The notes under the pieces were generated by a model. That model was not told the DNA's origin, made no database searches, and worked only from the letters and a program-made list of their open reading frames with translations. DNA of 64,000 bases. Source: Spiroplasma culicicola AES-1 (lineage in GTDB: Bacteria; Bacillota_I; Bacilli_A; Mycoplasmatales; Mycoplasmataceae). The position numbers and the translations under genes were made by a program. The stretch spans positions 434,001 to 498,000 of the forward strand of contig NZ_CP006681.1 of the NCBI RefSeq assembly GCF_000565175.1, written 5' to 3'. Within the stretch, counting starts at the first letter, position 1. Every line of letters begins with the position of its first letter. This document shows positions 24,507 through 60,480 of this stretch, piece by piece.

Positions 24507-24540
24507 AAAATAACCCAACTAATCAAAGGGTTATTTTTTT
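24507..24540 (+). terminator. Terminator closing the R-M operon
   Basis: Stem AAAATAACCC / GGGTTATTTT with a seven-T run. Confidence 0.85.
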
Positions 24541-24600
24541 ATTTAAAAATCTATTAATTAGAATAATAGCTTAAAACAAACTAATAATGCTTGCTCTCTA

Positions 24601-24629
24601 TTGCAAAAAAAAAAAAAAAAATCTACAAT
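24601..24629 (+). promoter_or_regulatory. Promoter with 17-A homopolymer spacer (candidate phase-variable switch)
   Basis: TTGCAA at 24601-24606 and TACAAT at 24624-24629 are exactly 17 bases apart, and most of that spacer is part of an uninterrupted run of 17 A (24605-24621). A transcript would start near 24636, with a GGGGG RBS at 24645-24649 and ATG at 24655. Slippage in the A run would change the spacing and switch the DndC operon on or off. The same design controls vlp lipoprotein genes in Mycoplasma hyorhinis (literature knowledge). Confidence 0.7.
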
Positions 24630-24654
24630 TATATATAGAAAATAGGGGGTAAAA

Positions 24655-26082
24655 ATGGAAAGAAAGGATCAATATTTATCTAAGGTTAGACATACCAAAG
24701 ATATTATTATTGAGGTTTATACAAAGAATAATTTTAATTGAATGGTTGGTTTTTCTGGTGGAAAGGATTCTACAGTTTTAGTTCAAATTATAATGGAAGC
24801 ATTGTTAGAGATTCCCAACATTTCTAATTTTGATAATATTATTCATATTGTTAGTTCTGATACATTAATTGAAAATCCTATTGTTTTAAAGCAATTAAAT
24901 ACTTCATTAAAATTAATAGAAAATTTTGCAATTGATAATAAATTACCAATAAAAGTACATAAGGTTGAACCCGATATTGAAGAATCATTTTGAGTTAATT
25001 TAATTGGTAGAGGTTATCCTTTACCAAATCAAAGTTTTAGATGATGTACAGATAGATTAAAAATTAAACCAATGAATCAAAAAATGGAAGAACTTTCACT
25101 AAAAAATGAAGTTTTAACAGTTCTTGGTGTAAGAAAAGGTGAATCTGCTTCAAGAGATATAAAATTAGTCAAGAATGATATTAAAGATTCCTTATTCAAG
25201 AAGAATGATACAAATAATAAATTAATATTTGCCCCAATTGAAGAATTCAGTCTATATGATATTTGAAGTTATTTAGCAGAATCGCGAATTAATTTTTTTA
25301 AAACAAATAATAATACTTTATCTTTACTTTATGAAGATTCTTCAGTTGGAGTTGAAGAATGCCCTTCAAGTTTAGATGACAAATTACAAAAAGGATGTGG
25401 AAATTCACGATGAGGATGTTGATTGTGTCCAGTAGTTACACAGGATAAATCATTAGAAGGCTTTGTAAACTCAGGACAAACTTGGTTAAAACCCTTATTA
25501 GAATTTAGAGAAGAACTTATTCAAGGTAGAGATAAAGTTTTAAATAGGTTTAATGCATCATTAAGAATAAGTAAAACCAGTAACAATATTTCTTTACTTA
25601 AATACAGATATATGGATTTAAAAATAAAAAATGATAATTATTTTTTACCTAAAAAACTTGGTAGAGATGAAATACGATTTGGATATTTTGATAAAAATAA
25701 AAATATATTGATTAATGATAAAAAAATAAAAGTTATTAGTGAAACAGAATATAAGAATTTAGTAGATACAAATATTATTGATCCTTATTCAAATTCTTGT
25801 GCAGAGGAAATATTTGAATATGTTATAAAACTAGATAAAAATAGTAATAATCAAATTCTTTCAGTTCCTGGTTTAGGACCTTATACGTTGAAATACAGAA
25901 AGGAATTATTAAAATCTATTAAAAAATTAAAAAGAGAAATGTCTAGTTATGATATTGAAATTATTTCAGATCAGGAAATTAAATTAATCGAAAAAATTAT
26001 AGTAAATGTAGAAAATAAATTAAATGAGAGGCATTTTAATATAACAAAAGAAGGAGAAAAAGTATATGAGTCAAGAATATAA
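24655..26082 (+). CDS. dndC: DndC-like PAPS-reductase-family protein (DNA phosphorothioation)
   Basis: 475 residues. In Dnd systems DndC is an ATP pyrophosphatase with an Fe-S cluster that helps place sulfur in the DNA backbone. PP-loop SGGKDST at 34-40; HIVSSDTLIENP; FWVNLIGRGYPLP; FRWCTDRLKI with C131; LGVRKGESASRDIKL; and CGNSRWGCWLCPVV with C248, C255 and C258, giving the four expected cluster cysteines. LLEFREEL follows. These blocks match DndC very closely. Unusually, no dndA, dndB, dndD or dndE is nearby; a MORC-type ATPase, Z1 and DUF4420 follow. Overlaps the next gene by 17 bases. Confidence 0.92.
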
Positions 26083-27847
26083 TGAAGAGATGGAAATTCC
26101 GCGTAGTAATAGGGAATATTTAGGCTATATTGATAAAACAACAGACCATATTTATATGTTGTCTGAATTTATAGATAATTCTATTCAATCTGCAAAAGAT
26201 CATAAATTTAAAAATGTAGAAGTAAAAATCTGTATTGATAAGAAAAAGGGAATTTTATATATTAGAGATGATGCGGGTGGAATTGCGTTTAAAAATAGAG
26301 GAATTGCCATTAAAAATGGAAAAGATGAGACCGAACAAGGAGATACTTTAAATATGTTTGGTGTTGGTATGAAAATGGCTTCTATATGATTTGGTAGGAA
26401 AATGACATTTTTTACAAAATCAGTTGAAGATGATTTTAGTTATTCTTTAACTCTAGATGTAGATAAATTGGAACACTCAGATTTTAAAGTTGAAGTTCAG
26501 AAGAACATTGATATTACATCAACATCAGGAATAGATTTTCTACATGAGCATGGAACAATTGTGAAAATTGAAAATTTTCATTTAAATGGTCCACATGCAG
26601 GTAGATATGATAAAAAAATGTTTGTTAAAGGCGATAAAAAAGATGGAAAAGCACTTGAAGAGCAAATAGCTTGTCGTTTTTCAAGATATTTAAAAAATCA
26701 TTTTTTAAGAATAACTTTTAGTTATATTGATGATAAAGGCCTAGAACAAATGGATGGTACAAAACCACTTGTTATTACAGAAAGTACAATTCCAAATTTA
26801 TATTTATCTCAAAAAGACAAAAATGATTATGAATATTTACAAGGTAAAAATGTTAAAGAGGCAACCTTTTATAAAAAGATTATGAAGGAAATCTATAATA
26901 AATATGAAAGCATGTTTGATAATGATATTGAATTTGGTGATTTAACTTATAGAAAGATAATTGAAACTTTTGAAAATCAAGAAGAATTTAAATTTAAAAC
27001 CAAAATTCAATTAGATGAAAAATTTAATAATATAAAAATCCCTTTTACTTTTGGATATATTAAAAAAGAAAGTGCTTTTATGAAATATACAGGTTTATCT
27101 GTTTATCAAGATGATAGAGCAGTAATATCAGGACCAAATACAAATAAAACAAAATTAACATGACTTACTTTTGATAAAGCACTATCAAATAAATCTGTAA
27201 AGGTAACACTGCGTTTTATTGGAGAAATTGATTTAAATAATAAATCAATGTTTAGAGTAGATAATAACAAAATGGGTTTTCATGGAACAGTAAAAGAAGA
27301 TATTGAAGAAATTATTTCTAGAAAATTTCAAAAACATTTGGCAGATCTAATTGATAAACTTTTAGATATTATTTTATATAAAGATGAACAACATGCATCT
27401 GATGAAGCTATAAGAATTGAAAATGAAAGATTTGCAAAAGAAATTAATAAACATAACATTTTAGAAAATTGTTCAGTTGAAACTGAAAATTTAAATGTAC
27501 ATGAAAATGATGGAGAAAGACCTGTTAATTCTTTTAAAGTATTAGATAAAGTAACAAATGAGTATAAATTTAATTTTATACATTATTTACAGGATTTAGA
27601 TGATCAAAGAAGAATTTTTAGAGCAAATGTAGAAGTAGATAATACAGAAGGCAAATATTTATATATTTTATTTGTAAACAAGAAATTTGTTGGCTTTAAA
27701 CCAACTATGAAAGATGAAGATTTTTCAGTATTAGTAAATCCGATTATTAAATTAATTATTCATAGTTTAAAAGATGTTAAAGATCATGAAGCAAGAGTTG
27801 AAAAATTTTATAATATAGTTGAAGTTATTCAAGGTGATGAAAAATAA
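26066..27847 (+). CDS. MORC/MutL-like GHKL ATPase (Mza-type)
   Basis: 593 residues. GHKL ATP-binding site: N-box LSEFIDNSIQSA (N38), G1 box RDDAGGI (68-73), G2 box GVGMKMAS (99-106). A transducer-like region follows and an acidic C-terminal domain about residues 400-593. Prokaryotic MORC/MutL-like ATPases next to Z1 and DUF4420 proteins were described as part of restriction-like operons and, with an AIPR protein, as the Mza defence system (literature knowledge). Likely senses or remodels DNA. RBS AAGGAG within the end of dndC. Two TGA Trp codons. Confidence 0.85.
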
Positions 27848-27848
27848 T

Positions 27849-29258
27849 ATGTTTAAATTTATAAAAGATTTAACTATTGAATATAGAAATAACTTTGTTG
27901 AAAATGATCACTATAAAAAATTGAAAAATAATTTTTTAGAATCAAATCCCCATTATATGAAAGATGCATATCGTGATGTTTATGAAGTAAATGTTAAAAA
28001 TACTTTAAGTGTTTTTAATGATGAATTAAAAAGAAGTAGTATCTTATTAGCTGGTGAAGTGCAATCGGGTAAAACAAATAATATGTTATTTATAACTGCA
28101 GCATTAATTGGTCTTGGTTTTAATAAAATTATTTATTTTACAGGTACAAAAAATAATTTAAACAAACAAAACATAAAAAGATTTAAAGATTTTTTTAAAG
28201 ATGCAGAATTTAAAGATTTTTCAAATGCAAAATCTTTATTTAATAATTCAAATAAGGTTGAGATATTTTATGGAATTAAACAAAATCTTGGAAATATTAA
28301 CTCGTTATTAAATGATATGGATATAAGTCAATATGAAAACTGAAATGTTTTAATTATTGATGATGAATGCGATGAAGCCTCATCTGAAAAAACTAAAGAA
28401 AATAGAACCGTTAATGCAAATATTTTAAAATTATATGAAACAAATTTTAAAAAAGTTGTTTATTTGCCAGTAACTGCAACACCTTATGCAAATTTAACTT
28501 CATTTACTGATGGTTTAGCACCAAATTATGTAATACCACTTGTTTCATCAACTTCATATTGTGGATTAAAAGTATTTTCTGATAATGACTTATATAAAAT
28601 TATAGATAAAAGTATTGTAGATAAAATTTATGCTAGGAATTTTGATGTTCAAACTGAAGAAATTTTTATGAAATATATAATTGATTTTTTAATAGAATGT
28701 TATCGAGATGAAAAGAATTATCAATTCCTTATCAATATAACTGTAAACACAACTCCAATAAAAGACTATGATAAATATATTAGAAAAATCATTTCAAAAT
28801 TAAAAGTTAAAAATAAAGCTTTTTATAATAATTTTATTGGAAATGATGAGTATATTAGTTTTAAGCAATGACTAGATAAATTAGAAGTTAAAATGATTAT
28901 TGAAGGTTTTGAATATATAAGAACAACTAATCCAGAAATAATAATTGGGGGCAATTTATTGTCAAGAGGTATAACTTTTGATGATCTAATTTATGAAATA
29001 ATGTTAAATCACTCTGAAAGTGGAATTTTTTCAAGTGATACTTTATTGCAACGTGCTCGATGGTTTGGATATAGACTTCGCTATATTTATAAGATGAGAA
29101 TTTATACATCTAATATTGGCTATAACTTTTACAACAATATTTATGAAATTGATACACGTATAAGAAGTTTATATGAAAATGATTATTCAAATTCTAAAGA
29201 TAAAATTATGCGAATAAAAGATATTTTTAAAGAATATTCATATAAATGAACAAATTAG
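27849..29258 (+). CDS. Z1-domain ATPase/helicase-like protein, short form
   Basis: 469 residues, about half the usual Z1 protein. Walker A GEVQSGKT (residues 69-76), DEAD-like box IIDDECDEASSE, VTATPYANLTS, and the Z1 signature GGNLLSRGITFDDL followed by LQRARWFGYR with the arginine finger. So the SF2-type motor core is complete while the C-terminal domains of longer family members are missing. Start set at ATG 27849, one base after the ATPase stop, with AAGGTGATG as RBS. Confidence 0.85.
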
Positions 29259-29269
29259 GAGAATAAAAT

Positions 29270-30232
29270 ATGAGCATAAATGATACAGATATAAATATTA
29301 TTGATCAAAAAAATGGATATATTTTTTTCACTACAACTGATGTTAAAAATTTTTATATTTTAAAACCAACTATGTATAATGCTTCTCTACCTAAATCAAT
29401 TAAACCTTTGAAAAAACCTAATTTTTCTTATTATCCTTCTGTGAATTCAATAACTAGTTTTCAAAAAGAAGATGCTAGAATTAGAGTTTTACCCAATTAT
29501 AAAGTTGCAATCGAATATAATGATAAAAAAATGGATGGAGAAGTTTTGGCATTTGAAAAAGGTATAAATATAAGAGTTGCTGAATTAATATATACAACAT
29601 TTATAAATACTCATGAAATAGCAAATTCAATGTTTGAGATTGTAAAAGAATTTGAAAATATATTTGGTCTTATTTGAAAAATTGATAAAAAATTTCAAAT
29701 AGGTTTAATTGGTGAATTACTTGTAATGCAAAAAAATGAAGATTATATAGACATTTTAATGGAAGGTTTTCATGGAGAAAATATAGCTGATAAAAATTTT
29801 GAATCAATTACAGATTTTGAACTAAAAACAAAAAAGGGAATAAAAAATATAGAAGTTAAAACTTCTATATCAAATGAAGGGCTATTTACATTAAAAAATA
29901 ATCAATTAAATACAAGTATTAATGATTATTTTGCAGCTGTTACTATAGAAATAGTTAAAAAAGGGGGTCAAACATTAATTGATTTAATCGATTGATATTT
30001 AGAACTTCCTTCCTTAAAAAGTGAATTAAAAAATATGTTTTTAGATTTGAAAGAATCACATGATAGTAGAAATTTATTAAGATTCGATCCAAGAACTGTA
30101 AAATTAAAATTTATTGATATACACAAATTACCAAAAATTCAAAATACAGATGATAGAATTAAAAATATTAAATTTCAAATTGATCTAAACCATTTTGAAG
30201 ATATCCAGTTAAAAAGCATTATTGCCTCTTAA
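29270..30232 (+). CDS. DUF4420 (PD-(D/E)XK-type) nuclease-like protein
   Basis: 320 residues. The C-terminal half carries GLIGELLVM, then SITDFELKTKKGIKNIEVKTS at about residues 180-202, giving Glu, Asp and E-x-K of a PD-(D/E)XK nuclease. This is the DUF4420/PF14390-type protein that accompanies MORC-type ATPase and Z1 genes. The N-terminal half is beta-rich. Last gene of the operon; its stop lies inside a 14-bp terminator stem. RBS TTAGGAG. No AIPR gene follows, unlike full Mza loci. Confidence 0.8.
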
Positions 30233-30250
30233 AAGTCAATAATGCTTTTT
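30211..30250. terminator. Bidirectional 14-bp terminator
   Basis: Perfect stem AAAAAGCATTATTG / CAATAATGCTTTTT between the DUF4420 gene and the convergent small gene. Confidence 0.9.
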
Positions 30251-30254
30251 AAAA

Positions 30255-30760: not shown

Positions 30761-31627
30761 ATGTATACAATTGAACAATTAAATAGTATTAAATTGAATT
30801 TTCACTTTAGTATGTTTTGCAATATGAGATGTAAATTTTGCTTTTATGCTCCATTGATTGCAAAAGCAAAACGTGAAGATAATTTAAACAATTGATTAGA
30901 AATAATTAAAAAAGTTGCCTTTTTTAAAGCAATTAACTTTGCAGGTGGAGAACCTACACTTTATTGAAATCAATTAAAACAAATGGCTAAACTATGTAAA
31001 GAATTAGGTCTTAAAGTTACTTTAATAACAAATGGAACAGTAATTAAAAATAAATCTCAAAATGAAGTAAATGATCTATTACAGTATTTTAATAGTGTGG
31101 GAATTAGCATGGATTCAATTGATTTAAATATAAACCAAAATTCAGGTAGAGCGATTGGCAATAAATCTGCATTATCTGAAGATGATTATTTAGAGGTTGG
31201 AGCAAAAATAAAAAAAGCAGGGTGTCAACTTAAAATTAATTCTGTAGTTCATTCTTTAAATAAAAATACAAGGATGATAGATTTTATAGAAAAAATTGAT
31301 CCATATAAATGAAAAATAATGCAAGTTAGTTCTGTTGGTCAAGAATTTCATAAGGATTTCATTATTTCTAAGTCTGATTTTGATAAATTTTTAGAAATAA
31401 ATGATATTAAAAATAAACATAGTTTTGTAAAATCAATTGAAGATGAAACTACTGTTACATCAACTTATGTGATGATTGATGGAGAGGGATATTTCTATAA
31501 TTCAGATCAAATATATAATAAGAATAATAAAAGTATTTTAAAAGAAAATGTAGATGTATTAGAAGAATTTAATAAATGTAATTTTGATATAAATTCTCAA
31601 TTAGATAGATATAAAAATGAAAAATAA
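30761..31627 (+). CDS. Prokaryotic viperin (radical SAM antiviral enzyme)
   Basis: 288 residues. Viperins convert nucleoside triphosphates to 3'-deoxy-3',4'-didehydro forms that stop viral polymerases; prokaryotic homologues protect against phages (literature knowledge). Radical-SAM cluster C20-x3-C24-x2-C27 in FCNMRCKFCFY, preceded by LNFHFS; INFAGGEPTLYW; LITNGTVI; ISMDSID; SGRAIGNK; CQLKINSVVHSLN; YKWKIMQVSSVGQEF; and the C-terminal ETTVTSTYVMIDGEGYFYNS. These match viperin block by block, including the C-terminal region absent from MoaA-like enzymes. No nucleotide kinase neighbour. Confidence 0.9.
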
Positions 31628-53418: not shown

Positions 53419-53471
53419 AGTAAGAATTGAGTATAAATTTATACTTATAACTTGCTTTTTTTTTTTTTTTT
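53419..53471 (+). terminator. Terminator with 16-T run (possible second role in lipoprotein promoter)
   Basis: A long imperfect hairpin (core AGTATAAATTTATACT) is followed by 16 T (53456-53471). The same stretch can be read as a promoter spacer: TTGCTT (53452-53457), 15 bases, TAAAAT (53473-53478), just before the lipoprotein gene. Confidence 0.7.
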
Positions 53472-60442: not shown

Positions 60443-60480
60443 AAAAAAAAAAAAAAAATACCAATAAATAGGGTATTTTT
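60443..60480 (-). terminator. Terminator after treR with 16-A/T run
   Basis: Stem AAAAATACC / GGGTATTTTT, followed on the minus strand by 16 T (60443-60458 read as A on the plus strand). Confidence 0.75.

Follow-up and report, generated by a model that had tools for sequence, protein, structure and literature searches.

The dndC operon and its upstream region

The window analyzed here is a 64-kb stretch corresponding to bases 434001-498000 of the 1.175-Mb genome of the wall-less bacterium Spiroplasma culicicola, and positions in it are counted from its first base. Genes were read in code 4, in which TGA encodes Trp, as they are in Mycoplasma and Spiroplasma; this code and the gene content both point to the Spiroplasma group. 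A four-gene operon is located on the plus strand, and its genes overlap or almost touch each other. The first gene, dndC, encodes a DndC-like sulfurtransferase of the PAPS reductase family (24655-26082), whose SGGKDS loop and Cys residues are kept in seven homologues. It is followed by genes for a GHKL ATPase (26066-27847; PF13589), a Z1-domain helicase-like protein (27819-29258; PF10593 and PF04851) and a DUF4420 protein that is a putative PD-(D/E)XK nuclease (29270-30232; PF14390). Read in code 4, all four frames are intact, whereas taking TGA as a stop codon would interrupt them. A terminator-like hairpin followed by T's lies upstream of the operon on the plus strand (24507-24541; 10-bp stem, -9.7 kcal/mol, z -2.5) and separates it from the preceding genes, and a strong hairpin closes it (30209-30252; -17.5 kcal/mol, z -7.3).

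The neighborhood of the operon includes two D12-type methyltransferases and an HNH protein on the upstream side. One opposite-strand gene is found downstream, followed by a prokaryotic viperin gene (30761-31627; NF038283, 234 bits with a cut-off of 180) and then by a 474-aa gene of no named family. An antiviral function of the DndC-GHKL-Z1-DUF4420 operon is presumed from its protein families.

The operon had been described, from the sequence alone, as a DndC DNA-modification or defense operon. A DndC-like gene does head it, with a score of 325 bits to TIGR03183 against a cut-off of 290. However, a genome-wide search with the DndD model TIGR03185 returned no match, so the canonical Dnd phosphorothioation system was rejected and DNA modification by this operon is at most putative. 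Membership in the MZA defense system was rejected as well, because the scores of 28 bits for MzaB and 55 bits for MzaC fall far under the curated cut-offs of 850 and 1500. The operon shares a DndC-like protein with the Dnd and MZA systems, and its ATPase and Z1 proteins are weakly similar to MzaB and MzaC, respectively. Unlike in those systems, DndC, GHKL, Z1 and DUF4420 proteins together constitute a cassette of its own.

The start codon of dndC (ATG, 24655) is preceded on the same strand by a ribosome-binding site, GGGGG (24645-24649). Further upstream, the sequence reads TTGC (24601-24604), a homopolymer of 17 A's (A17, 24605-24621), TC (24622-24623) and a -10-like box TACAAT (24624-24629), which places A17 33 bp 5' of the start codon. 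When TTGCAA (24601-24606) is taken as the -35-like box, the two boxes are 17 bases apart, as the sequence-only reading had stated. That reading also had the run of 17 A's fill the spacer exactly. The spacer is indeed mostly A, but it consists of 15 A's and TC; the first two A's of the tract belong to the -35-like box, and the other 15 of the 17 lie inside the spacer. Both boxes are consensus matches only, agreeing at 9 of 12 positions, and by themselves they are no better than chance, with 50 such sites in 6.7 kb vs 60 in shuffled sequences. Significance of the dndC promoter from the hexamers alone was thus rejected. Since hairpins bound the operon on both sides, the A17 promoter is the only evident one for these genes. 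Only three A/T runs of at least 10 bases are present in the whole window, 16, 16 and 17 long, and the dndC tract is the longest. The other two are located at 53456-53471 and 60443-60458.

Long A/T tracts in the genome

A total of 58 A/T runs of at least 9 bases were found in the genome, of which 54 are 15-20 bases long and only four are 9-13. Under Markov models of order 1, 3 and 5 that had been trained on the window, the expected number of runs is about 300-650 for lengths of 9-14, vs 4 observed, and 0.6-5 for lengths of at least 15, vs 54 observed. A chance origin of the A17 tract was rejected on these expectations. The tracts are thereby marked as a maintained class, intermediate runs being nearly absent while the long ones are kept.

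The analysis of flanks covered the genome stretches around the A/T runs of at least 15 bases. TTG and TANNNT flanks at promoter distances are present at 30 of the 54 tracts, vs 354 of 7398 runs of 4-8 bases (~5%; Fisher p 3e-25); the remaining 24 tracts fail this strict promoter test. The spacers implied by the promoter-flanked tracts range from 14 to 19 bases, and only three of them, including that of dndC, are 17. Tract lengths cluster at 16-17, and both A and T tracts occur. Not every tract is a promoter spacer, for example one found at the end of an insertion sequence (IS). The genes that follow the tracts were named by inspection and with a lipobox motif; most of them encode surface lipoproteins, PTS sugar transporters or membrane proteins. 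The dndC operon is the only recognisable defense operon headed by such a tract in the genome. A slippage-prone spacer tract before a DndC operon, as had been proposed, is well supported by the genome-wide class, together with the one-base length differences and the T16 tract of a relative described below, but it is one of about 50 such tracts and not a singular feature. Many other genomes of the family possess several to dozens of runs of at least 14 bases.

In some promoters, two successive long tracts are separated by about 10-75 bases (L042:2001-2049, L043:2001-2048, L055:5897-5940 and L041:5947-6055). An A16 tract is also found 14 bases 5' of a gyrA-like gene (L022:2001-2016; G000:C1:4530), which is an odd site for a switch.

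Related operons and differences in tract length

A dndC homologue is present in seven of the 60 genomes of the family, this one included, each species being represented by one genome. The close form of the operon, with ~60% identity, was found in three other genomes (G034, G035 and G032). The G034 operon is 62% identical to that of S. culicicola, and its dndC is preceded by TTGA-T16-A-TATAAT and then by a short open frame. This promoter resembles the promoter of a nearby lipoprotein gene, which carries T17, and it adjoins an IS copy; both features suggest capture. No such tract lies upstream of dndC in G035 and G032, that is, in two of the four close orthologues. Because one tract is of A and the other of T, and their flanks are unrelated, a tract before dndC was apparently gained twice independently.

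Three distant homologues (L019, L020 and L021) belong to a second form of the cassette, in which GHKL, Z1 and a third gene are followed by DndC and an unassigned gene; a GmrSD-like gene is also present in L020. We further surveyed 43 methyltransferase-domain loci of the genus, several of which are weak matches and probably housekeeping methylases. No run of at least 13 bases was found in 41 of them, and neither of the two runs that were found has the form of a spacer. Tract promoters are thus not a general feature of methylase genes, and given the weak matches the Fisher value for this comparison is not counted as evidence.

Differences of one base in tract length were found both between near-identical promoters within the S. 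culicicola genome (697378 with T16 vs 737555 with T17, and 722500 with T17 vs 731588 with T16) and among ten nearly identical IS copies of G034 (L056-L065) with a tract at one end, seven with T16 and three with T17, although one-base homopolymer assembly errors could mimic the differences in both the promoter pairs and the IS copies. The ten IS copies show a single SNP across 10 x 1130 bp and provide a natural gauge of slippage.

A putative promoter switch and its known counterparts

We infer that the A17 tract is probably a slipped-strand promoter-spacer switch placed before a DndC-type operon of presumed defense function; variation in its length, any resulting change in transcription and a role of the operon against phage are all putative. 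The operon has one evident promoter, and the tract would make the spacer of that promoter variable. Slipped-strand mispairing during replication would add or remove A's, and this would alter both the spacing of the -35 and -10 boxes and the twist of the DNA that separates them. Efficient transcription is expected near one spacer length, with the present 17 predicted to be ON, and weaker transcription at other lengths. Operon-ON and operon-OFF cells would consequently be mixed in a population, as described for the vlp genes of Mycoplasma hyorhinis. Such a switch is argued for by the genome-wide tract class, the one-base differences between promoters, the T16/T17 variants of the IS and the T16 spacer tract that G034 has of its own, and also by the intact and hairpin-bounded operon. 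The tractless close orthologues, the tracts that fail the strict promoter test and the chance level of the boxes count against it.

Alternatively, the tract could be a structural or regulator-read promoter element of a regulon comprising surface, sugar-uptake and dndC genes, with a length selected near 16-17 that sets promoter strength or allows regulation, and no random switching. The clustering of tract lengths at 16-17 is in favor of this explanation, and the tracts carried by several PTS operons could suggest regulated expression. It is made unlikely by implied spacers that vary from 14 to 19, by the occurrence of A as well as T tracts, and by near-identical promoters with tracts of unequal length. 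It is even more improbable that the tract is an effectless by-product of AT-rich sequence, with dndC transcribed constitutively or from elsewhere: box-like sites do arise by chance in large number, two close orthologues lack the tract and some tracts, such as that at the IS end, are not promoter spacers, but composition predicts hundreds of the nearly absent runs of 9-14, promoter flanks are strongly enriched at the tracts, and the upstream terminator-like hairpin leaves the A17 promoter as the evident one.

The reading of A17 as a spacer switch can be extended to the whole genome, where we regard the case as evenly balanced. Many of the about 50 tracts would be promoter-spacer switches, and the DndC-GHKL-Z1-DUF4420 operon would have been placed under one at least twice independently, with A17 and with T16, resulting in transcriptional bet-hedging of phage defense alongside surface lipoproteins and sugar transporters. 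If this is true, these genome-reduced bacteria use one random promoter device to switch both their phage defense and their surface proteins. With A/T runs of 9-14 nearly missing and 54 of 15-20 present, the genome bears a clean, testable signature of switches that are kept as a class.

Phase-variable defense through repeats in coding sequence is already known. In the open-access literature searched, no homopolymer in a promoter spacer before a defense operon was found, nor was any defense operon, of dnd type or otherwise, described as switched by a poly-A or poly-T tract in its promoter. The closest counterpart is provided by the vlp lipoprotein genes of M. hyorhinis, in which indels in a promoter poly-A tract are stated to switch transcription (Citti and Wise 1995, as cited in PMC10502178). 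Both loci belong to mollicutes and have a poly-A tract in the promoter region, and at dndC a long homopolymer lies between the -35 and -10 boxes. Unlike in vlp, the tract precedes a defense-type operon and not a surface lipoprotein, and its length variation is putative. In the Mycoplasma mycoides cluster, GC(T)16-20 motifs occur upstream of a lipoprotein family, and their function was reported as unknown (PMC3053259). Like many tracts in the present genome, these motifs combine TTGC and a T tract 5' of genes, whereas the tract before dndC is of A. The tract class described here offers a likely role for them.

Slippage of simple repeats is also known to act on phage defense and restriction-modification (R-M), as proposed here for dndC. 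The Pgl phage-growth-limitation system is phase-variable through a G tract in pglX (PMC4365076), and phase-variable R-M genes were reported in M. agalactiae (PMC9465063). The repeats of these systems lie within genes, where slippage changes the frame of one gene only, whereas the A17 tract lies in the promoter of a whole operon, and all four genes, rather than a single reading frame, would toggle between ON and OFF together.
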